The notes under the pieces were generated by a model. It searched no databases, was not told where the DNA came from, and saw only the letters and a program-made list of their open reading frames with translations. Shown piece after piece: positions 1,639 through 23,943 of a DNA stretch of 64,000 nucleotides (positions are counted from its first letter, which is position 1; the number at the start of each line of letters is the position of its first letter). A program made the position numbers and the translations under genes. The DNA is from Amycolatopsis sp. NBC_01480. Lineage in GTDB: Bacteria > Actinomycetota > Actinomycetes > Mycobacteriales > Pseudonocardiaceae. The stretch covers positions 1,364,001 through 1,428,000 of the forward strand of contig NZ_CP109442.1 of assembly GCF_036227205.1 (NCBI RefSeq), in the 5' to 3' direction.

Positions 1639-2574
1639 TCACCTATTCCTGCGGTTCTCCAGGACGACCTTGCCCCGGACGTGGCCGCCGGCCAGCAGCC
1701 GCTGGGCGTCCGCCGCCTCCTCCAGTGGGAAGGCGCGGTCGACGTGCACCGTGACCTTGCCCGACTCGACCAGCTCCACCAGCCCGGTCAGGTCCTCGCC
1801 GTCGAGTTTGAGGTAAACGGCGATGGTCCCGGGATAATCGGTGAGGGACTGCGTGATGGAAGCGGCCCGCACCCCCGGGGCGGCGAGCGCCGGCGTCGTG
1901 GCCAGAGAGCCGCGGCCCGCGGTGTCGAGCACGGCATCGACTCCGTCCGGAACGATCTTCAGCACCTGGTCGACGAGTTCGTCGCCGTACCGCACCGGCG
2001 TCGCGCCGAGTGACTCGATGAACGCCTGGCTGGCCTCGGAGCCCGTGCCGAGCACCCGGGCTCCCTGTGCCACGGCGATCTGGACGGCGAGGTGCCCGAC
2101 TCCGCCTGCCGCACCGTGGACAAGGACCGTGTCGCCTTCCGTCACCCGGAGGCTGTGCAGGATCGCCTGGTACGCGGTGAGCCCGGCGACCGGCAGCCCG
2201 GCGGCCTGGGCCCAGGTCAGGTTCTTCGGCTTGCGGATGAGCTGGTGCGGTTCGGCCCAGATCTTCTCCGCGTAGGTGCCGTAGTGCATGGCCTTGCCGC
2301 GGACGTACCCGATCACCTCGTCGCCGGGCCGGAATCCGGTCGCCGAGGCGCCGAGCCGCTCGACGACCCCGGCCAGGTCCCAGCCGGGCGTCACGGGGAA
2401 GAGGGAATCCACGAGAAAGTCCACGGCTCCGCTCTGGTACGCCAGATCCGCCGGATTGAGCCCCGCCGCCTCGATCCGCACCAGGACGAAATCAGCGAAC
2501 GTCTTCGGTTCCGGGAGGTCGACGATTTCGAGGACCTCGGGTCCACCGAAGGTCCGGTACTGAACAGCTTTCAT
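1639..2574 (-). CDS. NADP-dependent zinc-independent quinone oxidoreductase (MDR family)
   Basis: 311 residues starting at ATG 2574 (MKAVQYRTFGGPEVLEIVD), with GGAG just upstream; an upstream extension in this frame is not protein-like. GroES-like N-terminal domain, then a Rossmann domain with the nucleotide-binding stretch VLVHGAAGGVGHLAVQIA. Structural zinc cysteines are absent, as in the quinone oxidoreductase/zeta-crystallin branch of the medium-chain family. It would reduce quinones or enones with NADPH in the cytosol. It is divergent, across 100 bp, from a LysR regulator that probably controls it. Confidence 0.85.
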   Translation of the reverse strand: MKAVQYRTFGGPEVLEIVDLPEPKTFADFVLVRIEAAGLNPADLAYQSGAVDFLVDSLFPVTPGWDLAGVVERLGASATGFRPGDEVIGYVRGKAMHYGTYAEKIWAEPHQLIRKPKNLTWAQAAGLPVAGLTAYQAILHSLRVTEGDTVLVHGAAGGVGHLAVQIAVAQGARVLGTGSEASQAFIESLGATPVRYGDELVDQVLKIVPDGVDAVLDTAGRGSLATTPALAAPGVRAASITQSLTDYPGTIAVYLKLDGEDLTGLVELVESGKVTVHVDRAFPLEEAADAQRLLAGGHVRGKVVLENRRNR

Positions 2575-2674
2575 GACTCCAGCTTTTCTAGTGGTTCGGG
2601 TTGGCACCTCCAGCTGACCAGGGCGTGCGTGGCGCGGCAATGACGGTCTGGGCAACGGGTAATACCGTGGAGGC

Positions 2675-3619
2675 ATGAATCAGCTGGAGACCCGGGAGCT
2701 GGCCTATTTCGTGGCGGTCGCCGAGACGCTGCACTTCGGCCAGGCCGCGGAGCGCCTCGGCATCACCCAGCCGCCGCTTTCCCGCGCCATCGCCCAGCTG
2801 GAACGGCGCGTCGGCGTCCCGCTGCTGGAGCGCACCACGCGCCAGGTGACGCTGACCGCCGCGGGCGAGGTCTTCCTGGCCGAATGCCGCGCGATCCTGG
2901 CGGCGATGGACACCGCCGTGCGTAAGGCGCACAAGGCCGCCGATCGGCAACGGATCACCGTCGCTGTCCGCCCGTCGGCCGGCCCCGGCGTCCTTCCTGC
3001 CCTGCTCGCCGCCGGCACGCAGGGGGTGCTCGTCGACGTCGTTTTCACCTACGACGAGATCAGCGCCCTCCGGGACGGCACTGCGGACATCGCCCTCATG
3101 TGCCAGTCGGCCGCCATCCCCGGTCTGGAGCTGATGGAGCTGGGACTGGAACAGCCGATAGCGCTGCTTCCGGCGGGCCACCCACTGGCCGACCGGCCGT
3201 TCGTGACCCTCGCCGAGGTCGAGGCCCTGCCGGGCTACGCGGCGCAGATGCCGAACGAGGCACTGGACACCATGGTCGACCGCGTCGCGCTCGGACAGCT
3301 GGTGGTCGTTGTCGGGGACAGCGTTCGCGACCGGCTCGGCGGGACGGTGCGGGTGGTGCCGGTTCGGGGATACCCTGCCACGCAACTGGTTCTGGCCTGG
3401 CTCCCGGCCGCACGCACGACTGTTTCTCGGCTTACTGCGGCTGCTCAGGCGCTGTTGGCGGCGCAGGCTGCGACTGTTGGGGTGGGGAGCGCTGGGGTGG
3501 GAGATGCCGACCTCGGCGACACCCAGCCACTCGGCGGGACCCGCAATCAGCAGGATGCGGCGCGGGCGGCAGCACCCGTCGGCAGCGAGGCGAGCCCTGG
3601 CGGTCAGCCCGACGCATGA
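2675..3619 (+). CDS. LysR family transcriptional regulator
   Basis: 314 residues. The N-terminus has the LysR winged helix (ELAYFVAVAETLHFGQAAER then LGITQPPLSRAIAQLE), followed by the periplasmic-binding-protein-like effector domain to about residue 265. The last 50 residues are Gly/Ala/Gln-rich and look like an extension beyond the normal LysR fold, running into a repeat region. ATG 2675 has GTGGAGG just upstream. Its position divergent from the quinone oxidoreductase fits the usual LysR pattern of autorepression plus neighbour activation. Confidence 0.88.
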   Translation: MNQLETRELAYFVAVAETLHFGQAAERLGITQPPLSRAIAQLERRVGVPLLERTTRQVTLTAAGEVFLAECRAILAAMDTAVRKAHKAADRQRITVAVRPSAGPGVLPALLAAGTQGVLVDVVFTYDEISALRDGTADIALMCQSAAIPGLELMELGLEQPIALLPAGHPLADRPFVTLAEVEALPGYAAQMPNEALDTMVDRVALGQLVVVVGDSVRDRLGGTVRVVPVRGYPATQLVLAWLPAARTTVSRLTAAAQALLAAQAATVGVGSAGVGDADLGDTQPLGGTRNQQDAARAAAPVGSEASPGGQPDA

Positions 3620-3657
3620 GCGGGTGGCGGGTTTGCACGGTCCGGGCAGCCCGGCCG

Positions 3658-3762
3658 CATGCGCGATCCGGCTCTCCGCATCAGCAGTCCGGCTCGCTGC
3701 ACCAGCAGCCCGGCTCTCCAAATCAGCGGTTCGACTCGCTGCGTCAGCAGTCCGAATCTCCG
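3658..3762. repeat. Five imperfect 21-bp tandem repeats
   Basis: Units start at 3658, 3679, 3700, 3721 and 3742, and a partial sixth at 3763. The consensus is roughly CATCAGCAGTCCGGCTCTCCG. The 21-bp period keeps every frame open, so both strands read as heptad-like peptides, but no start, ribosome site or codon bias supports a protein. The tract follows the LysR stop directly. Confidence 0.85.
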
Positions 3763-3821
3763 CATGAGCGGCTGGCCGCATGAGCCCCCTGGCCGCCTTC
3801 ACCCCATCAAGCGACTGCCAT

Positions 3822-3837
3822 TCGCTCATGTGTTCGA
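3822..3837. promoter_or_regulatory. SOS (LexA)-box-like sequence before the DUF222 remnant
   Basis: TCGCTCATGTGTTCGA matches the actinobacterial SOS box TCGAAC-N4-GTTCGA in the whole right arm and in four of six bases of the left. It lies 12 bases before the ATG at 3850. SOS boxes in front of 13E12-type DUF222/HNH genes are known in mycobacteria. The damaged left arm fits the decayed state of the gene behind it. Confidence 0.45.
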
Positions 3838-3849
3838 TATCGTAGAACC

Positions 3850-4194
3850 ATGAAACCACCCCGCCGAACCACCGAAGTCACCCGCCGCCTCGCCCTGTCC
3901 GCCACGGAGATAGCTGCCATGACCGCCCTCGCCACAGCACTCGCCAACGACCTGCCGGAGACCCAAAAAGCCTTACAGGACGGCGAAATCGACATCGGTG
4001 TGGCCGCGGAACTAGCCGCCCTCGCCGGCTACCTGACCCCACACCAGGCCCACCTGGCCGCCGACGTGATGAATCCCGGCACCCCCGAATGGCGCTGGCT
4101 CAACCCGACACCCGAACCCACCCCGGTCGCCCCCACCACCTCGGCCACCCCAACTGCCCCGACTATCCCTGCCACTCCAGCGGCTTCGACCTAG
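3850..4194 (+). pseudogene. Remnant of a DUF222 (13E12-type HNH endonuclease) gene
   Basis: 114 residues. Positions 8-75 (VTRRLALSATEIAAMTALA … LPETQKALQDGEIDIG … LTPHQAHLAADV) resemble the central helices of DUF222, where full proteins of 400-500 residues carry an HNH domain after a Pro/Ala linker. Here the DUF222 N-terminus is missing. The linker becomes a Pro/Thr tail that ends in a TAG contained in the first unit of a 40-bp repeat tract, and no HNH motif (HHxxxxxxGG-type) follows. Family assignment rests on pattern likeness and is moderate. Confidence 0.5.
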
Positions 4195-4471
4195 CCACGC
4201 CAACATCCCAGCCATTCCAACAGTTTCGACCGAGCCGCCCCGACATCCCAGCCATTCCAGCGGCTTCCACCTAGCCGCCCCAACACCCCGATCAGCCCAG
4301 CGGCCTCCGCCTAACGCCCCGACATCCTGGCCACTCCGGCGGCTTCCACCTAGCCACCCCAACACCCCGGTCAGCCCAGCGGCCTCCACCTAACTCCCTG
4401 ACATCCCGGCCACCTCAACGGCTTCCACCTGGGCACCCCAACATCCCAGCCGCCCCAATGCCTTCCGCCGA
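4154..4471. repeat. Eight ~40-bp tandem repeats
   Basis: Units of 40, 40, 40, 40, 39, 40, 39 and 40 bp start at 4154, 4194, 4234, 4274, 4314, 4353, 4393 and 4432. A common core is GCCRCCCCAACAYCCC near the start and CGGCTTCCACCTA at the end. Units at 4274+4314 and 4353+4393 match as 79-bp pairs, so the latest amplification step was a dimer. The 39/40 period breaks every frame, and CTAG stops recur at the joints, so this is not coding now. It starts inside the DUF222 remnant. Confidence 0.9.
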
Positions 4472-4815
4472 GCTGCCCCAGCCAATCCGACTGCCCGAAC
4501 CACGCCCGGAGGTTCCCCTCAGCCCCCTGACCGCTTCAGCCGCTCAGCCCCAGCCGCTCCAACCAGTGCGGCCGCACCATTTGCTTCCGCTCCAGCCGCC
4601 GCGGCCACTCCAGTTTCCTCCAGGAAGCCATCCCAGGCACCCCAACCAGCCCGGCCGCAGCAACCGCTTCGGTCCCAGGCACCGCGGCCACTCCAGTTGC
4701 GTCCATGTAGCCGCCGCAGGCACCACGGGTACTCCAGCGGCTTCGACCTTGCCGCCACAGCCACCGCGGCCGTCCCGGTCACTCCAACCGTTCCATCTTC
4801 CCCACAGGAGGCCCA
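4472..4815. other. Gene-free Pro-codon-rich DNA
   Basis: C-rich sequence with recurring CCAGCC, CCACTCCAG and CGGCTTC words continuing the adjacent tandem repeats in a more degenerate form. One + frame stays open here, but it gives a Pro/Leu/His-rich chain with no ribosome site, no domain and no third-position bias. I see no gene. Confidence 0.6.
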
Positions 4816-5307
4816 TCAGTCCTTTGAGGACAATGCGTAATGCTCCCGCATCCCCGCACTAGCGCCGGGACCCGCGGCAAAACCCACATCAAGCTCGTCG
4901 AGCGGCAGGCCCGTGCGGCGGTCGACGAGCACGGCGTCCACCGGTTCGCCCGAAGTTCGGTTGATCAGCTGGATGCTCCGGGAATCAGCTGGCACGTGAC
5001 GGTCACCGAAACCTGCCAGGGTGATCAGCACCGGCAAGAACTCGCGGCCGCGGGTGGTGAGCACGTACTCGTGTCGAGGCGGGCGGGCCTGGTAGCGGCG
5101 GCGTTCCAGCAAACCCCCGTCGACGAGTTTGCGGAGGCGGCGGGTCAGCATGTTCGGTGCGATGCCGAGGTTTCGCTGGAACTCGTCGAACCTTGTGTAC
5201 CCGTCGAAGGCGTCACGGAGGATGAGCATGCTCCACCATTCCCCTACGTCGTCCAGGGAGCGCGCGATCGGGCACTCCGCGCCGCCGAGATCTGTGCGCG
5301 ACGCCAT
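4816..5307 (-). CDS. HxlR family winged-helix transcriptional regulator
   Basis: 163 residues from ATG 5307. It has the HxlR pattern: a Cys near the N-terminus (GGAECPIARSLDDVGEWWSM), then LRDAFDGYTRFDEFQRNLG, IAPNMLTRRLRKLVDGGLLE and a wing ending in YVLTTRGREFLPVL. The Cys at about position 12 is the residue that some family members use to sense aldehydes or redox stress. It overlaps the aldo-keto reductase stop by one base (TGATG), so the two are translationally coupled. It is expected to repress its own operon through the palindrome at 6373-6395. Confidence 0.88.
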   Translation of the reverse strand: MASRTDLGGAECPIARSLDDVGEWWSMLILRDAFDGYTRFDEFQRNLGIAPNMLTRRLRKLVDGGLLERRRYQARPPRHEYVLTTRGREFLPVLITLAGFGDRHVPADSRSIQLINRTSGEPVDAVLVDRRTGLPLDELDVGFAAGPGASAGMREHYALSSKD

Positions 5308-6356
5308 CAGACGACCGGGATCGGGTTGCGGACGAAAGACTCGCCGACGATGTCCGTTGACACGCCGGCCGCGGCCTCGTGCGGATTGCCCAACGGCACC
5401 GCGCTCACCTCGCCGAGCCGCGACAACTGCTCGGCAGACAAGGAAACGTCCAGTGCGCCAAGGTAATCCTCGAGTTGCGCGACGTTGCGCGGGCCGATCA
5501 CCGGCACCAGCGTCGTGGGAGACTGCTGGGCGAGCGAAAGCTGCCACGCCGCGGCGGCCTGCGACGGTGTCACGCCGGCTTCGCGCGCGACGTCCAGCAG
5601 TACATCGACCACCGCGGTCTTCTGCGTGCTGTCCTCGGTGTGCACCAGGCGGCCCCAGTCCTCCAGCCGACCCGACGCGCCGGCGCGATACTTGCCGGTC
5701 AGCAGACCGCCGCCGAGGGGCGACCACAGCGCGACACCCAGCCCCAGCGCCTCGGCCATCGGCAGCAGTTCACGGTCCGCGGTTCGCTCGACCAGGCTGT
5801 ACTCCACCTGGATCCCGGCCAGCGGCGCCCAGCCACGCAAGTCCGCCGTCGCCGCGGCCCACGAAACGCGCCAGGCCGGGAAGTTCGACAGGCCGGCGTG
5901 CAGGATCTTGCCCGACGAGACCAGGTCGTCCAGCCCGCGCAGGATCTCTTCCATCGGCGTCACGCCGTCCGGGAAATGCACCCAGTACAAATCAATCCGG
6001 TCGGTCTTCAGCCGCGTCAGGCTCTCCTCCACCGAGCGCACCATGGTCCGGCGGCTGTTGCCGCTCGCGGTCACCGAGCCACGGCCGGGCGAGGCGCCGC
6101 GCGTGTACTTGGTGGCGACGACGAAGTTGTCCCGCTCCGCGCCGAGGAATTCGCCGAGCAGCTTCTCCGACTCGCCGAACTGGTAGCCGTCCGCCGTGTC
6201 GATCAGCGTGCCGCCCGCCTCGGCGAAGCGGTTGAAGACCTTGCGGGACTCGCTTGCGTCGGCGCCCGCGCCCCAAGCCGTGCCGAAGTTGCCCGTGCCC
6301 AGCGCGTACTCCGAAACCCGCAAACCCGTGCGACGCCCGAACGTCCGGTAACGCAT
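5307..6356 (-). CDS. Aldo/keto reductase
   Basis: 349 residues from ATG 6356, with GGAGGTGG five bases upstream. TIM-barrel reductase of the voltage-channel-beta/YajO-like branch. It shows the catalytic tetrad Asp/Tyr in DTADGYQFGESE, Lys in VVATKYT and His in YWVHFPD. NADPH-binding positions near the C-terminus (VPVIGPRNVAQLEDYLGAL) are intact. It reduces aldehydes or ketones; the substrate is not known. It is the first gene of an operon with the HxlR regulator. Confidence 0.88.
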   Translation of the reverse strand: MRYRTFGRRTGLRVSEYALGTGNFGTAWGAGADASESRKVFNRFAEAGGTLIDTADGYQFGESEKLLGEFLGAERDNFVVATKYTRGASPGRGSVTASGNSRRTMVRSVEESLTRLKTDRIDLYWVHFPDGVTPMEEILRGLDDLVSSGKILHAGLSNFPAWRVSWAAATADLRGWAPLAGIQVEYSLVERTADRELLPMAEALGLGVALWSPLGGGLLTGKYRAGASGRLEDWGRLVHTEDSTQKTAVVDVLLDVAREAGVTPSQAAAAWQLSLAQQSPTTLVPVIGPRNVAQLEDYLGALDVSLSAEQLSRLGEVSAVPLGNPHEAAAGVSTDIVGESFVRNPIPVV

Positions 6357-6372
6357 GGTCCACCTCCGCCTA

Positions 6373-6395
6373 GTGACTATCAATATGCAAGTTAC
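6373..6395. promoter_or_regulatory. Imperfect palindrome, candidate HxlR operator
   Basis: GTGACTATCA-ATA-TGCAAGTTAC. The two 10-base arms match at 7 positions as an inverted repeat. It is AT-rich in a GC-rich genome and sits 17 bases before the start of the aldo-keto reductase/HxlR operon, overlapping where the promoter must be. HxlR proteins bind palindromes of this size. Confidence 0.5.
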
Positions 6396-6491
6396 CACGT
6401 AAACGGCAGTGCCTCGAGGGGTAACAGCCCATCGGGCCGTTAGCCGGCGATTCCGGCTACGCTGGGTTGTCCAGGGACCGGATGACGAGGG

Positions 6492-7646
6492 ATGGCCACT
6501 GTGATGCGTCGAGTTCGCCTGGCCGCGATGCTGGTGATCGCCCTGCTCCTGTTGTTCGGCGAGCCGTGGACGGTGTTCGTGCTGCTGCCGGACTGGCCGG
6601 TGGCGGGCACCGTCATCGGCACGGTCGTGTTCGCGGCGGCGATGATCGGGTTCCCGCTCCTGATGTTCCGCGGCCACGGCCCGGCGCAGAGCGACGCGGC
6701 CGCCCGCGCCGGCGACGTGGTGCTCGGCTCGATCTGGGTGCTGTTCACCTGGAGCGTGCTCGGCCACGTGCTGCGGCCGGCGCTCGCACTGTCCGGTGTG
6801 GACGATCCCGCCCGCCCGCGGATCGTCGCGGGCGCAGTGCTCGTCGTTTCGGCCGTCTTGCTCGTGACGGGCAACCGGATCGCGATGCGCGTGCCTCCCG
6901 TCAAGGAGGTCGACGTCGTGATCCCGCGGCTCGGCGCCGGCGTCGACGGGCTGCGCGTCGCGGTGATCACCGACACCCACTACGGCCCGATCGACCGCAC
7001 GAAGTGGTCCGAGCGGGTGGTGGCCGAGCTGAACCGGCTGCAGGCCGACGTCGTCTGCCACGCGGGCGACCTCGCGGACGGCTCGGTGGCCAGGCGCCGC
7101 AAGCAGGTCGACCCGCTCGGCGGCGTCGAGGCCCGGCTCGGCCGGTTCTACATCACCGGGAACCACGAGTACTTCGGCGAGGCCCAGGCCTGGCTCGACC
7201 ACATGACCAGCCTCGGCTGGGACGCGCTGCACAACCGCAGCACCGTCATCGAGCGAGACGGCGACGGAGTGCTCTTCGCGGGCATCGACGACCCGACCGG
7301 CGCGACGTCCGGCCTCCCCGGCCACGGCCCCGACCTGCCCGCCGCGCTGGCCGGCGCGGACCCGGAGCTGCCCGTCGTGCTGCTGGCCCACCAGCCGAAG
7401 CAGGTGACGCAGGCCAGCGAAGCCGGCGTCGACCTGCAGATCTCGGGACACACCCACGGTGGCCAGATCTGGCCGTTCCACCTCCTGGTCCGCCTCGACC
7501 AGCCCACCCTGTCCGGCCTGACGCGCCACGGCGACCGCACCCAGCTCTACAACAGCCGCGGCTCCGGCTTCTGGGGCCCGCCGTTCCGTGTGTTCGCGCC
7601 AAACGAGATCACGCTGCTCACGCTGCGCCGCGAAACCGCGCACTGA
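6492..7646 (+). CDS. Membrane-anchored metallophosphoesterase
   Basis: 384 residues. The first 130 hold about four hydrophobic helices; the calcineurin-like domain follows: VAVITDTHYGP (D-x-H), HAGDLADG (GD), ITGNHEYFGE (GNHE), LLAHQPK and ISGHTHGGQIWP (GHxH). This is the full two-metal site of the YkuE/YaeI-like phosphodiesterases. The catalytic domain is predicted to lie on one face of the membrane next to lipids. Ribosome site GAGGG before ATG 6492. The substrate is unknown. Confidence 0.88.
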   Translation: MATVMRRVRLAAMLVIALLLLFGEPWTVFVLLPDWPVAGTVIGTVVFAAAMIGFPLLMFRGHGPAQSDAAARAGDVVLGSIWVLFTWSVLGHVLRPALALSGVDDPARPRIVAGAVLVVSAVLLVTGNRIAMRVPPVKEVDVVIPRLGAGVDGLRVAVITDTHYGPIDRTKWSERVVAELNRLQADVVCHAGDLADGSVARRRKQVDPLGGVEARLGRFYITGNHEYFGEAQAWLDHMTSLGWDALHNRSTVIERDGDGVLFAGIDDPTGATSGLPGHGPDLPAALAGADPELPVVLLAHQPKQVTQASEAGVDLQISGHTHGGQIWPFHLLVRLDQPTLSGLTRHGDRTQLYNSRGSGFWGPPFRVFAPNEITLLTLRRETAH

Positions 7647-17963: not shown

Positions 17964-18342
17964 AACCTCTCCCCACTGCGTGCGCCGGCGGGCGAGGGGC
18001 CGCTCCGCCGGGCTCCCCACCAGTCTTGGTCCATTCGGCGCAGCGGACAGGGCGATGGCGACGAACGGTGCCGGACCTGCGCCGAGCGAGTAACCGTCGA
18101 TCAGTCCACCGGTACCTCCCGACGGGTCAGTACCACCGGAAGACGCGGTCCACCCGGCGTAGCCCGATCGGCTCAACAGCCGACGACATCCCCGTTCCCG
18201 GTCCACCTCCGGGTAATCAGCGGCATACTGGCTGTCGTCCCCGGTCACCGAACCTGTGACGCGCCGACCGGCGCTGTCACGGCACAGGCAGAATGCGGGA
18301 ACGCCACGTTCGCCCGACCGGGGAGGGGGGAATGGTCACCCC
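17964..18342. other. Divergent promoter region between SDR and MFS genes
   Basis: 379 bp with no gene. It must contain the promoters of both divergent genes. GGGGAGGGGGG at 18320-18330 is the probable ribosome site of the MFS gene. I see no clear palindrome or repeat. Confidence 0.5.
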
Positions 18343-19557
18343 GTGACGACCCACGCCAGTGCACCGCTGACCGCACCGCTGCGGAACGTCGAATATCGCG
18401 TTCTGTGGGCGGCCGAGGCCATCTCGAGCGCGGGCGACCAGCTGGCGAAGGTGGCGCTGTCCATCCTCGTCTACAACCGCACCGGCTCGGCACTCTGGGC
18501 CGCGGTGGTCTACGCGCTCACCTTCCTGCCCGCGCTGGCGGGTGGGCTCGGGCTGTCCTTCCTGGCCGACCGCTATCCGCGACGAGCGGTGCTGGCCTCG
18601 AGCGCGACGGTCCAGGCGGTGCTGGTGGGGCTGATGAGCATCCCGGGAATGCCGCTCGGCGTGCTGTGCGGGCTGCTCGTCGCGGTGCAGCTGGCCGCTT
18701 CGCCGGCGAACGCGGCGCAGAACGCGATCACCCGTGAGGTGTTCGACGACGACGAGCTGTACCTGCGCAGCCAGGACCTGCGCGGGATCACCACCAACAC
18801 GGTGATGCTGCTGGGGCTGGCCGGCGGCGGACTGCTGGTGACGGCGGTCGGCTCGTCGTGGGCGCTGGCGATCGACGCGGTGAGCTTCGCCGTGGCCGCG
18901 GCCATCGTCCGGGTCTGGGTGCAGGACCGGCCCGCGGCGGGCGGAGAGCAGACGACCTGGTTCGGGGCGACTCGGTGGGTGTTCGGGCAGCGGCGGCTGC
19001 GGGTGCTGATCGCGCTGTCCTGGCTGGTCGGGCTCTCGGTGGTGCCGGAGGGGCTGGCCGCGCCGCTGGCCCGTCAGCTCGGCGCGCCGTCCGCGGCCGT
19101 CGGCTGGCTGCTCGCCGCCGACCCGCTCGGCTTCGTGATCGGGGCCTACCTGCTGTCCAAATTCGCCTCGGCGCCGACGCGGCAGCGGCTGCTCGGGGTG
19201 CTCGCCACCCTGTCGCTGGCCCTGCTCGCGCTGTTCCTGCTGCGGCCGAATTTGCCGGTCGCGCTGGTGCTGCTGGCACTGGCGGGCGCCATGGGGGCGT
19301 ACATCATCACGGTCACCGCGACGTTCGCCACCTGGGTGCCGAACGAGATGCGCGGCGGCGCCGGCGGGCTGTATCGCACGGGGCTGCGCGTCGCGCAGGG
19401 TGTCGGCGTCGCGATCGGCGGGGTGGTCGCGCAGGCGACCGGCTCGGCCGTCACTGCCATCGCACTCGCCGGGGTGGCCGGCGTCGTACTGGCGATCCCC
19501 ACCGCGTTCTCCTGGACCCGGGTCCGGCACGCGGTCGCCGCCGACTCCGGGCTCTGA
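18343..19557 (+). CDS. MFS transporter
   Basis: 404 residues from GTG 18343; the frame is open further upstream but without a ribosome site. About ten to twelve hydrophobic helices. The loop-2 motif LGLSFLADRYPRRAVL is the MFS G-x-L-a-D-r-x-G-r-r signature. Similar to drug and macrolide exporters of the actinobacterial MFS group. The substrate cannot be told. It is followed by a 500-bp gene-poor stretch with micro-ORF repeats. Confidence 0.85.
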   Translation: MTTHASAPLTAPLRNVEYRVLWAAEAISSAGDQLAKVALSILVYNRTGSALWAAVVYALTFLPALAGGLGLSFLADRYPRRAVLASSATVQAVLVGLMSIPGMPLGVLCGLLVAVQLAASPANAAQNAITREVFDDDELYLRSQDLRGITTNTVMLLGLAGGGLLVTAVGSSWALAIDAVSFAVAAAIVRVWVQDRPAAGGEQTTWFGATRWVFGQRRLRVLIALSWLVGLSVVPEGLAAPLARQLGAPSAAVGWLLAADPLGFVIGAYLLSKFASAPTRQRLLGVLATLSLALLALFLLRPNLPVALVLLALAGAMGAYIITVTATFATWVPNEMRGGAGGLYRTGLRVAQGVGVAIGGVVAQATGSAVTAIALAGVAGVVLAIPTAFSWTRVRHAVAADSGL

Positions 19558-19626
19558 ATCATGGCCGGATCACTGCCGCCGGCCCGGCGAAAGAGGTCCG
19601 GGCATCGAAGCCGGACCGAACTGTTT

Positions 19627-19808
19627 TCACGCCTCGCGGTCACGCACGGAATCCACCTCCGCTCAGAATGTCACGGAACAAGCATGGTCAGGTCCAGCTC
19701 AGGCTTCACGGTCCGACATCGTCCGGCACCTCCTCGTGACTGCAATTCGGACGGAAAAGGGGCGGGAACGATTCAGGCCTCACGGTCCGACATCGGGAAA
19801 ACACCTCC
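19627..19808 (-). repeat. Three tandem Shine-Dalgarno plus micro-ORF units, M(S/R)DREA-stop
   Basis: On the minus strand three units repeat at 72-74 bp spacing. Each has GGAGGTG, then 6-8 bases, then a seven-codon frame. Unit 1 (19660-19627): GTG-start MRDREA-TGA. Unit 2 (19733-19699): ATG-start MSDREA-TGA. Unit 3 (19808-19773): ATG-start MSDREA-TGA. The frame, stop and ribosome site are the conserved part; the sequence between units is not. The last two micro-ORFs differ by a synonymous GAA/GAG change. No known gene lies downstream on this strand. The rest of 19558-20053 holds no convincing gene. Confidence 0.7.
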
Positions 19809-19874
19809 TGTGGCACACCGCGGGGATGCGGAAGAAGCCGGTGCCGCAATTCGCATTCGGCATTCACCAGCCAT
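19773..19874 (-). CDS. Possible 33-residue peptide ending in MSDREA
   Basis: The third micro-ORF is in frame with an upstream ATG at 19874 that has GGAGG about 11 bases before it. The longer reading is 33 residues with two cysteines (MAGECRMRI … SPRCATGG). It may be real, or the short six-residue frame may be the translated one. Evidence for translation is weak. Confidence 0.2.
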   Translation of the reverse strand: MAGECRMRIAAPASSASPRCATGGVFPMSDREA

Positions 19875-20053
19875 CGGGGGAAGGTACCTCCGGGGTGCGG
19901 AGGCACGCGAGTGGGCGGAACACGAATTCTGTCCTCGGGGAGGACTCCCTGCCGGGAAGTCGGTGAGTGCGATGATACCGGTAAGGCATCCCACCACCAC
20001 AGCGGGAACCATCACACGCCGACGACCCGAGAGACCGGAGGAGGCCGAGCCCG

Positions 20054-21508
20054 ATGCCCGAGAACGGACACGCGCGCGGTGAACCGACGGACTCCGGTGA
20101 CGGAGTACCCAAAGCCGCCCATGATCACCCTGCCCGGAACCAGAATTCTCCGAGTGGTGCACAAACCGCGACCGAACGGTCGCAGGGTGTCGGCGGCAGG
20201 CTGCGCTCGCTGATTTCCGCGAATCCGGTGTCCTCGTGGGATCTGTGGACGAAGCCGCGCCCGATGATCATTTTCCTGCTTTCCTGGGAAGCGGTCGCGG
20301 TCGCGCTGCTGACGTTCGCGATCGTCACCACCGGCGCCACCACTCTCGTCGACTGGGCGCGGTTCGGGATCCTCGCCGCCTGCGCGACGGTGCACATCCA
20401 GCTGACCCGGCGGCAGGAAGAGCGGCGGCGCAACCGGGTCACGGCCGTCCACATCGACCTGTCCGGCATCTGGGTCTTCCCGGGCGCGCTGCTGCTGCCG
20501 ATCCACCTGACCCTGCTGCTGATCGTCATCGTGCGGACCCAGCGGTGGTTCAACTCGCGGCGGCCGCCGCACAAGTTCGTCTTCACCTCGCTGACCCACG
20601 CCGTTTCGGCATTGCTGGCCCATCAGCTCTACCAGAGCTTCGCGTCGGCGGAAGTGGCCCGGCTGAGCCCGGCGAACTCACTGCAGGTCTTCGGCATCCT
20701 GATGCTCGTCGGCTTCTGTTACGCCGCGTTGCAGGCGATCGTCATCGGCGGCCTGCTCGCGCTGGGCGGCACCTCGGCGCCGACGCTGAGCAATGTGCTG
20801 GGCACCAAGGACGACAACCTCCTGGAGCTCTCGACGATCGGGCTCGGCACCATCGCCACCATCCTGCTCGTGGACATCCCGCCGGCGATCGTGATCCTGG
20901 TGCTGATCACCGTGCTCGGCAACCGGCTGGCGGAGATCAACCAATTGCAGTCGGAAGCGCGGACGGACCCGAAGACGGGGATCTTCAACGTGCGCGGCTG
21001 GTCCGAATCGGCCGAGCGCGCGCTGGCCCGCTCCGCGCGCGGCGGCGAAATGCTGGCGCTGCTGATGATCGACCTCGACCATTTCAAGTGGATCAACGAC
21101 ACCTACGGTCACCCGGCGGGCGACGACGTGCTGCGCACCGTCGCGCAGACCCTCGACGAGATCACCCGCCCCAAGGACATCATCGGCCGGTTCGGCGGCG
21201 AGGAGTTCCTGATCCTGCTGCCGGACGTCGACGAGACCGCGTCGAAGGTGACGGCCGAACGCATCCGCGTCGCGATCGCCGAACAGCAGATCGTCAGCAC
21301 CGACAAGCGCGGCGGCCAGGCCCGGATCAGCGGGCGCACCGCGTCGATCGGGGTGGCGCTGCTCGGGCCCAACGGGGCCACTGTGGAACAGCTGCTGCAC
21401 GCCGCGGACGCCGCCGTTTACGCGGCTAAAGAGGGCGGCCGCAACCAAGTGCGGTTCGCCGACGCGGACCAGTCGTTCACCGAGGGCCAGTCCTTCACCG
21501 AGAACTGA
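20054..21508 (+). CDS. Membrane diguanylate cyclase (GGDEF)
   Basis: 484 residues from ATG 20054, with GGAGGAGG upstream. A polar 60-residue N-terminus, then about six hydrophobic helices (70-295; for example LSTIGLGTIATILLVDIPPA), then a GGDEF domain at about 310-475: DPKTGIFNVRGW, LMIDLDHFKWINDTYGHPAG and the active-site loop RFGGEEFLILLPD. The GGEEF site is intact, so c-di-GMP synthesis is expected. No EAL domain or clear I-site RxxD is seen directly before the loop. Confidence 0.9.
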   Translation: MPENGHARGEPTDSGDGVPKAAHDHPARNQNSPSGAQTATERSQGVGGRLRSLISANPVSSWDLWTKPRPMIIFLLSWEAVAVALLTFAIVTTGATTLVDWARFGILAACATVHIQLTRRQEERRRNRVTAVHIDLSGIWVFPGALLLPIHLTLLLIVIVRTQRWFNSRRPPHKFVFTSLTHAVSALLAHQLYQSFASAEVARLSPANSLQVFGILMLVGFCYAALQAIVIGGLLALGGTSAPTLSNVLGTKDDNLLELSTIGLGTIATILLVDIPPAIVILVLITVLGNRLAEINQLQSEARTDPKTGIFNVRGWSESAERALARSARGGEMLALLMIDLDHFKWINDTYGHPAGDDVLRTVAQTLDEITRPKDIIGRFGGEEFLILLPDVDETASKVTAERIRVAIAEQQIVSTDKRGGQARISGRTASIGVALLGPNGATVEQLLHAADAAVYAAKEGGRNQVRFADADQSFTEGQSFTEN

Positions 21509-21771: not shown

Positions 21772-23943
21772 ATGCCAGCCATCGACGACCGCGCCCCGGC
21801 CGCCGCGCGCCCACGACGTCGCTGGTCGACGTCGGGGTGGCTGCTGCTTGTCCTGTTCACCGTGTTCGCCTTCGGGCTGATCGCCTCGCGCCCGGCGTCG
21901 CCGCCGGACCAGGGGCCGCCGACCGGTGACGTGCTGGCGGCGCAGAACGCCATCGCGGCGCTGGTGCACCCCGGCCCGCAGCCGAGCGCGCTGGCCCTGC
22001 TGCCCAAGGACTTCACCGCCGTGATGGACGTGCTGCCGGGCGTGCTGACCGCGCGCGACGGGACGGTGCGGGCCGTGCACGTCGACGGCGGCTGCTCCGC
22101 GCCGTGGGGTGACGACAACACGAAGTGGGACTACTCCGTGCCGTGCAAGGCGCACGACCTCGGCTACGACCTGCTGCGTTACGCCGACAAGAAGGGCCAC
22201 CCGCTGGACCAGCAGGTCCGCGCGTCGCTCGACGCCCAGCTGTCGAAGGACATGCACCACACCTGCGCGCTGAACCCGATGGACTCGCCGCGCACCTGCC
22301 AGCTCGTCGCGACGCTGTACTCGGCCGGGCTGGTGGTGAACTCGTGGCATCAGCGCTGGGGCCCGCCGGTGGGCGACCCGATCGGCGCGATGGTCATCGG
22401 CGTGCTGGTCATCGGGGTGCTCCTGGCGTTCCGGCTGCGCGGCTGGCCCGCGGCCCGCCGGACCCGGCCCGCGGTTCGCCGGACCGGCCCGCCGACGCGA
22501 TGGGCGCTGCTCGGCGCGGGCGGCGCGGCGTTGCTGATGCTCGGCGAATCCGTGACCGCGCTCTTCGACTGGGCGGGCGCGCCGGAACAGGCGTTGTGGC
22601 CGTTGACCTGGCTCGCGCAGCTGACCCCGCTGCTGTTCTTCGCCGGCGGCCACGCCAACGAGGCGGGCTGGCAAGCCGAACGCGATCGCGGCTACCGGCA
22701 CTACCTCGCCGAGCGCGCGAGCCCGTTGCTGCGGCCCGCGCTGATCTTCGCCGTGGTCGCGCTACTCGTGCCGCTGGCACTGGAGCTGCTCGGGATCCCG
22801 GCGGGCACCAACGCCACGGTGATGCGGATCGCGCTGCACCCGCTGTGGCTGCTGGGCGTGTACCTGCTGATGATCGTCTGCGCGCCGGCGCTGCTGGCGC
22901 TGTACCGCCGGGCGCGGCTGGCGTCCGTGCTCACGCTGCTGGCCCTGGTCGTCGCGGGCGAGCTGGCGGCGACCTGGTCGGGCTCACAACTGCCGCGTTA
23001 CGGCGCGACGCTCGCGCTGGCGCTGCTGGCCCAGCAGCTGGCCTTCGCGCACGCTGACGGCGTCCGGCCGTCCCGGCGGGTGCTGGCCGTGGCGGCAGTG
23101 GTGGGCGTCGGCGGGCTCGCGGTGGCGAGCTTCGTGCTGGGCGCCTCGCCGACGCTGCTGGGCAGCCCCGGCGCACCCGCGGCCCTGTCCGCCGCGCCGT
23201 GGGAAGTGCTGCTGCTGGGCGTCACGCAGCTGAGCCTGGCCGGCCTCTTCGTGACGCCGTTGCGGCGCTGGGCCGCGCGGCCGTTGGTCCGGCGGGCAGC
23301 TGGGCTGGTGCTGCGCGCGCCGATGAGCCTGTACCTGGCGTTCCTGGCGGCGATGCTGCTGCTCGTCGCCGTGGTCTACCTGCCGGGCCCGATCGCGGAC
23401 GGCCTCAGCTGGCTGGTCCGGCCGCGGACCGCGATGGCCGTGGCGCTGCTGGCCGTGCCCGCGATCGCCGTGTTCTGGTGGTTCGAGCGGCACCCGGGCG
23501 CGCCGGCCGCGGACGCCGTCGAGCCGCCGGTCCGCGTCCGCAGCGGCCCCGGCTGGCACGCGATGCTGCTGACCAGGGCCGCCGCCGTGCTCGGCATCGG
23601 CTACGCGACGGCCGGCGTGTTCGGTCTCGCGCTGGCCCGCTTCGGCGACGTCGCCGCGGACGCCGACCTGCTCGGCCTCCGCTTCGACCCGGTGCAGAGC
23701 CTGGTCCACCTCCTGCTCGGCGTGCTGCTGCTGCACACCATCCGGACCGGCGCGACCACGGCGGCGAGCACCTGGCTGGCCTGCGCGCTCGGCAGCATTC
23801 CCGCGCTGGTGGCCGCTTCGGACGGCGAGCCCTCGGGCGCCGCCACGGTCGTCCTGCATGCCGGGACCGCGGTGTTCGCCCTGATCGCCGCGGCATCGTG
23901 CCTGGTCCCTGACCGGCGGGCGGCCGGGGCGACGCCGGGCTGA
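21772..23943 (+). CDS. Phospholipase A2 domain fused to membrane acyltransferase-like and DUF4383 regions
   Basis: 723 residues. TM1 at 22-38 leads to an extracytoplasmic domain at 80-195 with the bacterial secreted PLA2 signature: four Cys (108, 125, 165, 176) and the catalytic His128-Asp129 pair in VPCKAHDLGYDLLRY. From about 204 there are about ten hydrophobic helices; the segment PLWLLGVYLLMIVCAPALL resembles acyltransferase-3 membrane enzymes. The last 110 residues (ATAGVFGLALARFGD, DPVQSLVHLLLGVLLL) match DUF4383. The frame is continuous with normal codon bias throughout. The secreted lipase end could feed fatty acids or lysolipid to the membrane part. Confidence 0.7.
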   Translation: MPAIDDRAPAAARPRRRWSTSGWLLLVLFTVFAFGLIASRPASPPDQGPPTGDVLAAQNAIAALVHPGPQPSALALLPKDFTAVMDVLPGVLTARDGTVRAVHVDGGCSAPWGDDNTKWDYSVPCKAHDLGYDLLRYADKKGHPLDQQVRASLDAQLSKDMHHTCALNPMDSPRTCQLVATLYSAGLVVNSWHQRWGPPVGDPIGAMVIGVLVIGVLLAFRLRGWPAARRTRPAVRRTGPPTRWALLGAGGAALLMLGESVTALFDWAGAPEQALWPLTWLAQLTPLLFFAGGHANEAGWQAERDRGYRHYLAERASPLLRPALIFAVVALLVPLALELLGIPAGTNATVMRIALHPLWLLGVYLLMIVCAPALLALYRRARLASVLTLLALVVAGELAATWSGSQLPRYGATLALALLAQQLAFAHADGVRPSRRVLAVAAVVGVGGLAVASFVLGASPTLLGSPGAPAALSAAPWEVLLLGVTQLSLAGLFVTPLRRWAARPLVRRAAGLVLRAPMSLYLAFLAAMLLLVAVVYLPGPIADGLSWLVRPRTAMAVALLAVPAIAVFWWFERHPGAPAADAVEPPVRVRSGPGWHAMLLTRAAAVLGIGYATAGVFGLALARFGDVAADADLLGLRFDPVQSLVHLLLGVLLLHTIRTGATTAASTWLACALGSIPALVAASDGEPSGAATVVLHAGTAVFALIAAASCLVPDRRAAGATPG

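Follow-up and report, generated by a model that had tools for sequence, protein, structure and literature searches.

The locus raises the question of what is encoded by three minus-strand micro-ORF units that lie in tandem, at positions 19627-19808, between an MFS gene and a divergent GGDEF gene for a diguanylate cyclase (DGC), in the 64-kb stretch of DNA analysed here, referred to below as the window. Each unit follows the pattern GGAGGTG-N6..8-(A/G)TG-NNN-GAY-CGN-GAR-GCN-TGA (whole units 19773-19808, 19699-19733, and 19627-19660), the start-to-start distances are 74 and 72 bp, and the third unit begins with GTG, giving VRDREA, read as M. The first-pass annotation had described three tandem micro-ORFs with ribosome sites, a spacing of 72-74 bp, codon differences between the units, and non-conserved spacers, and it was correct on all these points, coordinates included. 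The reading favoured here, with moderate confidence and from comparative sequence data, is that the units are free micropeptide genes whose product would be the cognate ligand or regulator of the divergent DGC.

Table 1. Features of the array and its flanks in the window.
Feature	Position	Strand	Basis
Unit 1 micro-ORF MSDREA (ATG...TGA)	19773..19793	-	sequence and pattern search
Unit 1 ribosome site GGAGGTG	19802..19808	-	sequence and pattern search
Unit 2 micro-ORF MSDREA (ATG...TGA)	19699..19719	-	sequence and pattern search
Unit 2 ribosome site GGAGGTG	19727..19733	-	sequence and pattern search
Unit 3 micro-ORF V/MRDREA (GTG...TGA)	19627..19647	-	sequence and pattern search
Unit 3 ribosome site GGAGGTG	19654..19660	-	sequence and pattern search
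Divergent membrane diguanylate cyclase (DGC)	20054..21508	+	Pfam PF00990 E 6.4e-43; alignment; AlphaFold model
MFS transporter, convergent with the array	18256..19557	+	closest named models, under cut-off in each case: TIGR00900 (H+ antiporter) and EntS
Promoter-like block GGTATCATC, TATCAT as putative -10	19971..19979	-	186 nt before first start codon
Weak hairpin and short T-run 3' of unit 3, putative terminator	19590..19619	-	sequence and RNA fold

The core of the units is far more frequent at this place than chance would give. The core GAYCGNGARGCNTGA occurs in the window only at the three units, where 0.03 occurrences are expected from shuffling and three were reached in none of 100 shuffles, and the full unit pattern is found nowhere else in the 10.1-Mb genome, with a reversed-pattern control of zero. 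A motif-agnostic scan, which looks for at least two micro-ORFs with identical last three residues no more than 200 nt apart, picks out a single array in the window; 20 other stretches of the same genome, which amount to 400 kb with 225 micro-ORFs, yield no array. The definition of a micro-ORF (ribosome-site words, start, and length) varies slightly from script to script. Just upstream, at 19773-19874 on the minus strand, an additional ATG with a GGAGGT site starts a 33-codon frame that enters unit 1 in frame, and in the relatives L006 and L018 its place is taken by a short frame reading MAGEP-stop. This frame may be one more unit that has diverged, or it may have arisen by chance.

Within the genus, the place of the array is conserved far better than its peptide. 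The first-pass annotation had proposed a pattern search of related genomes, and such a search finds the DREA pattern in 20 of 80 same-genus genomes, with a reversed control of zero. In all 20 the array lies, by its coordinates, beside the MFS gene, and the DGC gene on its other side was confirmed in 18 of the 18 DREA genomes checked, the window included; in the near relative Amycolatopsis saalfeldensis, the MFS protein is 96% and the DGC 98% identical. Each of the remaining 60 genomes encodes an MFS homologue that is at least 62% identical, and the stretch past its 3' end was inspected in every one. A DGC is present there in 57; none of these lacks an x-R-[DE]-x micro-ORF, and 50 have at least two. 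In the other three the stretch holds no DGC and is in one case just 115 bases long. Taken together, micro-ORFs occupy one conserved place in 77 of the 80 genomes, the other three not allowing an assessment. The peptides themselves vary, and include SRDF, NRDF, NRDL, NRDG, SRDW, DRDF, GRDY, ARDF, and others.

Beyond the genus, a strict class-wide pattern with GAGGTG finds nothing in 393 other genomes; its pattern was too restrictive, for the DGC later led to arrays in that class whose peptides and ribosome sites are different. A looser family-wide pattern matches 98 of 386 genomes and 14 of 46 genera, with a reversed-pattern control of zero in all rows. The matches listed include MRSRDW arrays in a different genus and, within the genus of the window, a second locus where MRNRES/VRNRES units number up to ten. 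A scan of a named genome collection gave loci from 80 of 82 stretches. Seven with non-actinomycete titles (L181, L201, L216, L219, L233, L235, and L236) were excluded before counting, and 73 actinomycete loci remain, with 74 arrays of 2-23 units and 421 units in all, as counted by a search pattern that requires R-[DE] near the peptide end. They belong to Amycolatopsis, Prauserella, Thermocrispum, Haloechinothrix, Actinokineospora, Actinophytocola, Crossiella, Tamaricihabitans, Qaidamihabitans, Herbihabitans, Fodinicola, and one Pseudonocardiaceae genome. The median period is 70 nt, and most units have six residues (369 of 421) or five (50). One C-terminal tetrapeptide dominates each locus (DREA, NRES, SRDW, NRDN, GRDF, and so on), the label being the majority tetrapeptide where units disagree; among units, the final position can be W, F, S, N, A, Y, T, H, or another residue.

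Three of the seven excluded loci (L181, L201, and L233) have array-like rows as candidates. In L201, an Aequorivita MAG, three tandem frames ending in VREL lie at 4063-4168, the 4-kb stretch has no DGC match, and the frames may be chance or unrelated. In the Actinokineospora loci L173, L174, L182, and L226, long open frames run on the complementary strand of the MRSRDW arrays and would be annotated as repeat proteins (VTSRGTSGAPS-like) of the DGC gene; these long frames are artefacts, mirror images of the arrays.

The first-pass annotation had offered as one option that the units are three truncated 5' ends of a lost gene, to which a chance duplication can be added. All that speaks for such an origin is that three similar short frames sit together. 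Intact frames of the same length recur at the same place in many genera, with diverged spacers, which makes this origin very unlikely, the least credible of the explanations considered.

That the frames are kept as coding sequences can be seen from how the units of an array differ from each other. At the two codons that the search pattern leaves free (the fourth from last and the last), adjacent units show 163 synonymous and 4 non-synonymous changes. Among these changes are 36 switches between TCN and AGY serine codons, two sets separated by no fewer than two base changes. With every pair of units included, the counts are 873 synonymous to 65 non-synonymous, against 1887 to 7493 for random placement, and the 12 bases 3' of the stop are 41% identical within arrays. 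A first codon test gave 1662 to 65 but was partly forced by the search pattern, so the restricted test on two codons is relied on instead. On this sequence evidence, the bias would be very hard to explain by a function of the DNA or RNA alone. The coding selection suspected from the three units of the window thus holds across hundreds of units. The first-pass annotation would have given up its view on finding relatives with a broken frame and a preserved DNA repeat; the opposite is seen, with spacers diverged and frames kept. Exceptions are two lost start codons in otherwise intact arrays (GTT in L210 and ATA in L226), noted by eye in a permissive scan and not a systematic count, as the fuzzy search for broken units gave 196 hits that were mostly spacer. 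Such losses are as expected of genes in excess copy number.

The same changes bear on the idea that the repeats are DNA sites, such as operators, or a plus-strand 5' leader of the DGC gene. The repeats do sit in the gap upstream of that gene. However, the variation falls at synonymous positions and includes the serine codon switches, ATG and GTG starts interchange (223 and 178 units, besides 18 TTG and 2 CTG), the stop is TGA in 409 of 421 units (TAA in 8 and TAG in 4), the spacing of the ribosome site varies, and different peptides occupy the same place beside related DGCs. A role as DNA sites is accordingly judged highly improbable.

A regulatory RNA is a more serious competitor, if still an unlikely one. 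Here the array would be a translated leader, a ribosome trap, or a target mimic, in which translation rather than the peptide matters, for example through transcription interference with the DGC or the MFS gene. The strong ribosome sites are in keeping with this, as are the placement between divergent and convergent genes and the possible promoter block. This block, GGTATCATC, is found 97-245 nt ahead of the first unit in 29 of 74 arrays, which are 29 of the 33 classed as the window locus type, and it may be a promoter; a consensus scan of 19400-20300 for promoters and terminators called nothing. Against a regulatory RNA, the peptide sequence is preserved through synonymous change, the window array has no excess of RNA structure (z 0.72), an Rfam search of the window at gathering scores returns one tRNA only and no match at the array, and the array strand has no consistent downstream gene family. 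The decoy or ribosome-trapping leader named in the first-pass annotation is disfavoured because the identity of the peptide, and not the ribosome site alone, is conserved. Leader-peptide attenuators, of which the tandem attenuators of mgtCBR are an example (PMC3641672), likewise have short ORFs with their own ribosome sites. They differ in acting on a downstream gene of the same strand, whereas the next gene in the window is the convergent MFS gene and neighbour clustering finds no co-directional family that is constant across loci, and the frames of the arrays are many and nearly identical.

The constant neighbour of the arrays is the DGC. Six of the 73 loci are truncated on the DGC side, and a divergent GGDEF gene is present in all 67 others, its first match lying 119-525 nt from the array. 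Since six genomes of the genus have only 9-19 GGDEF matches each, chance adjacency is negligible. When the genes near the arrays are clustered into families, the DGC accompanies 15 of 15 peptide types and the MFS transporter 13, and the next families no more than 6; in our own count the MFS gene is directly convergent at 37 of 67 loci, and NRES loci have no adjoining MFS gene. In the window, the DGC has helices at residues 69-301 followed by a GGDEF domain with GGEEF and RxxD motifs. All 30 aligned members of the family match PF00990, with R372, D375, and G381-E384 invariant; gene starts in the relatives were set by script. Membrane-sensor DGCs of the MASE type likewise combine a polytopic N-terminal part with GGDEF. 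A weak hint of PF20972 (MASE9) is seen in 4 of the 30 members, at E 0.02 for the best of them; the window protein gives no such hint, and its membrane part is without a Pfam match. A structure comparison with the whole DGC covers little past residues 269-473, the fold search being filled by the GGDEF part. On the far side of the DGC, at 21772-23943 of the window, is encoded a large membrane protein, one segment of which matches prokaryotic phospholipase A2 (PF09056, E 9.4e-08), and this protein family adjoins the DGC in 20 clustered array loci.

The size of the units and the MFS neighbour call for comparison with ribosomally made natural products. In such a case the micro-ORFs would encode precursors like those of microcin C or the biarylitides, modified and then exported by the MFS protein, and the DGC would only time production. 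The microcin C export gene mccC does encode an MFS protein, and an efflux-type MFS gene is what converges on the arrays at the 37 loci counted above. The precursor genes of both groups are close to the array units in size: the passages of PMC6495379 on mccA describe a free micro-ORF of 7 codons with a strong Shine-Dalgarno site that encodes the whole peptide, and those of PMC13417212 on bytA a five-residue micro-gene of 18 bp, missed by annotation, with up to six copies in Lysinibacillus. Multiple micro-genes as such are therefore not new, going by those passages, and tandem mccA arrays do not appear in the microcin C literature passages searched. In vitro, one ribosome completes about 71 rounds on mccA without dissociation, as reported in the part of PMC6495379 consulted, which suggests that frames this short suit a dose-multiplied micropeptide.

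The two systems are the nearest by size, but their products are modified by dedicated enzymes, and clustering finds no such enzyme family recurring beside the arrays. Microcin C precursors need a C-terminal Asn and the adenylating enzyme MccB, according to the passages of PMC6495379 used here. The array units end in Asn in just 47 of 421 cases and in the window in Ala, their partner is a diguanylate cyclase, and no third family, ThiF-like or other, goes beyond 6 of 15 peptide types by neighbour clustering, profile scans having covered part of the neighbours. In the biarylitides, as the same parts of PMC13417212 have it, a cytochrome P450 cross-links aromatic residues of the pentapeptide. Most array units have six residues, the DREA, NRES, NRDN, and NRDS types have no aromatic ones, and a P450 is absent from the five window neighbours scanned by profile and from the recurring families, as judged elsewhere by clustering. 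A natural product remains unlikely on this balance, on a level with a regulatory RNA, and a further point against it, discussed next, is that residue 3 of the peptide tracks a residue of the DGC and none of the MFS protein.

If the peptides were ligands of the DGCs, both might be expected to diverge jointly, and in the sequences they appear to have changed together in evolution. In a DGC tree of 83 rows the peptide type tracks the DGC clade and not the host; Thermocrispum agreste, for instance, has DRDF in one DGC clade and NRDN in another. Among 87 orthologues of the first locus, all 58 with Asn or Ser at peptide residue 3 have His at DGC residue 164, and all 29 with Asp, Gly, or Ala there have Arg, as in the window, these peptide classes being chosen post hoc, after the column had been seen. 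Residue 164 is the only DGC column that splits perfectly. On the full tree, it and peptide residue 3 each change three times, and the branches involved are identical; when the tree is built from the GGDEF part, five of five changes are shared. Simulated alignments match as well in 2 of 1000 cases with the full tree and in 3 of 1000 with the GGDEF tree, in a test that runs over every DGC column and every way of splitting the residues at three peptide positions, with FastTree trees and a simple null. The same test with 86 MFS orthologues gives no perfect split or identical set of changes, the best column sharing 3 of 5. Eight further columns for the D/E position, seen on the GGDEF-only tree, are absent with the full tree and were taken as tree error.

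The model (mean pLDDT 84.5, pTM 0.66) predicts a helix at residues 150-168, with residue 164 close to its end, in a segment rich in Arg and Lys that the positive-inside rule would place in the cytoplasm. This predicted position speaks for sensing on the inner side, or for sensing of a peptide after its entry into the cell, and leaves export open.

Several other DGCs of the family have micro-ORFs for other putative peptides beside them. The window genome has 13 GGDEF matches, six of them in this membrane DGC family, and five of the six have divergent micro-ORFs with an MFS gene beyond, namely xDREA in three copies, MRDNNWT in one together with MRDNNWTR in four, and MRGQNW, MRSKDQ, and MRNKDL in one copy each; these last three could individually be chance. 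The sixth has neither micro-ORF nor MFS gene, and five other GGDEF genes examined in this genome have no array. Next to other GGDEF genes in the genus, a scan that presupposes no motif finds, besides the four MRDNNWTR units of the window genome, MSDKGW in four and in three copies and two units ending in ENNW. Paralogous MFS-DGC loci with other micropeptides (MSDKGW, MRGQNW, and MRDNNWTR) are seen in L257, L259, L247, and L252, so that one genome appears to carry several peptide-DGC pairs.

Across the class, a DGC homologue at E 1e-40 or better is found in 27 of 148 genomes, the window genome included; 30 of the 43 homologue places listed were made into loci, the other 13 falling outside the class-locus search. 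The 28 homologue loci outside the window genome comprise 12 with repeated micro-ORFs, 7 with a single candidate, and 9 with none. The repeated peptides include MRDTTWS in 12 copies, MRDNTWT in 5-8, and MRDNNWN in 8, as well as MRDNTWS, MRDNHWTP, MRSVQWA, VRGWKWS, MRANSWD, and MRHTSWS; the single candidates are MRDVHWG, MRDNNWT, MRDTTWI, MSSTQWG, and others. By eye, M-[RS]-x-x-x-[W or other] is a core common to these peptides. In the family f19, six of nine loci have no micro-ORF and three a single candidate. An MFS gene lies beyond the array in 9 of the 16 loci followed further, and the 7 without an MFS hit include four on short contigs.

The favoured mechanism would then work as follows. Each unit would be a complete micro-gene, with its own ribosome site, start codon, few codons, and stop, and its product a free peptide of about six residues, the dose of which the tandem array would multiply. 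The units would be transcribed and translated, and the peptide, acting in the cell or exported, perhaps by the neighbouring MFS protein, would bind the divergently encoded membrane DGC and alter its synthesis of c-di-GMP. Each DGC of the family would read its own peptide, and for this reason peptide and receptor would change together. The nearest systems by logic are the peptide pheromones of Gram-positive bacteria (Phr, PapR, SHP, and AIP), in which a small peptide is paired with its own receptor, sometimes with a transporter, in type-specific pairs. The arrays resemble them in that one ruling peptide per DGC locus and the co-change suggest specific, jointly diverging pairs, and the MFS neighbour is suggestive of secretion, although no MFS column tracks the peptide. 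Those pheromones are cut from longer precursors, usually have one copy, and are read by transcription factors or histidine kinases, whereas here the peptide would be encoded at about its final size, in tandem, beside a DGC. The passages on c-di-GMP inputs taken from a 2022 review name no pheromone (PMC8846402).

Several observations count against a DGC ligand. Micro-ORFs are absent from 9 of the 28 outside homologue loci and from one of the six membrane-family DGCs of the window genome, and the NRES loci have no neighbouring MFS gene. The predicted cytoplasmic position of residue 164 fits an exported signal poorly, and a short unmodified peptide would be exposed to peptidases. Among the options put forward in the first-pass annotation, coding selection, the nearly uniform peptide of each locus, the DGC pairing, and the co-change favour the multi-copy short signalling peptide, signalling itself being what we infer from these.

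A search of the open-access literature, which excludes preprints and subscription papers, found no description of such arrays, and the exact peptide words occur in no paper; as far as searched, arrays of up to 23 units paired with a DGC are new. The chances are about even that they amount to a signalling language, made of free, unprocessed peptides of 5-8 residues encoded at final size, in tandem arrays that reach 23 micro-genes, each array being matched to a membrane DGC of its own and with several pairs per genome (in the window genome apparently xDREA, MRDNNWTR, MRGQNW, MRSKDQ, and MRNKDL), in which peptide codes would set c-di-GMP levels, possibly between cells via the MFS protein. Frames this short escape ordinary annotation, and a gene class present in several actinobacterial families would thus have been missed; predicted long "repeat proteins" antisense to such arrays should serve as a warning of the reverse error. 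The match between residue 164 and peptide residue 3 makes a direct test of receptor specificity possible. If the proposal is true, a signal peptide can be encoded at its final size while the number of tandem copies sets the dose, and the arrays would provide natural peptide ligands for a family of membrane DGCs that has no known input, as well as a handle on c-di-GMP in antibiotic-producing actinomycetes.
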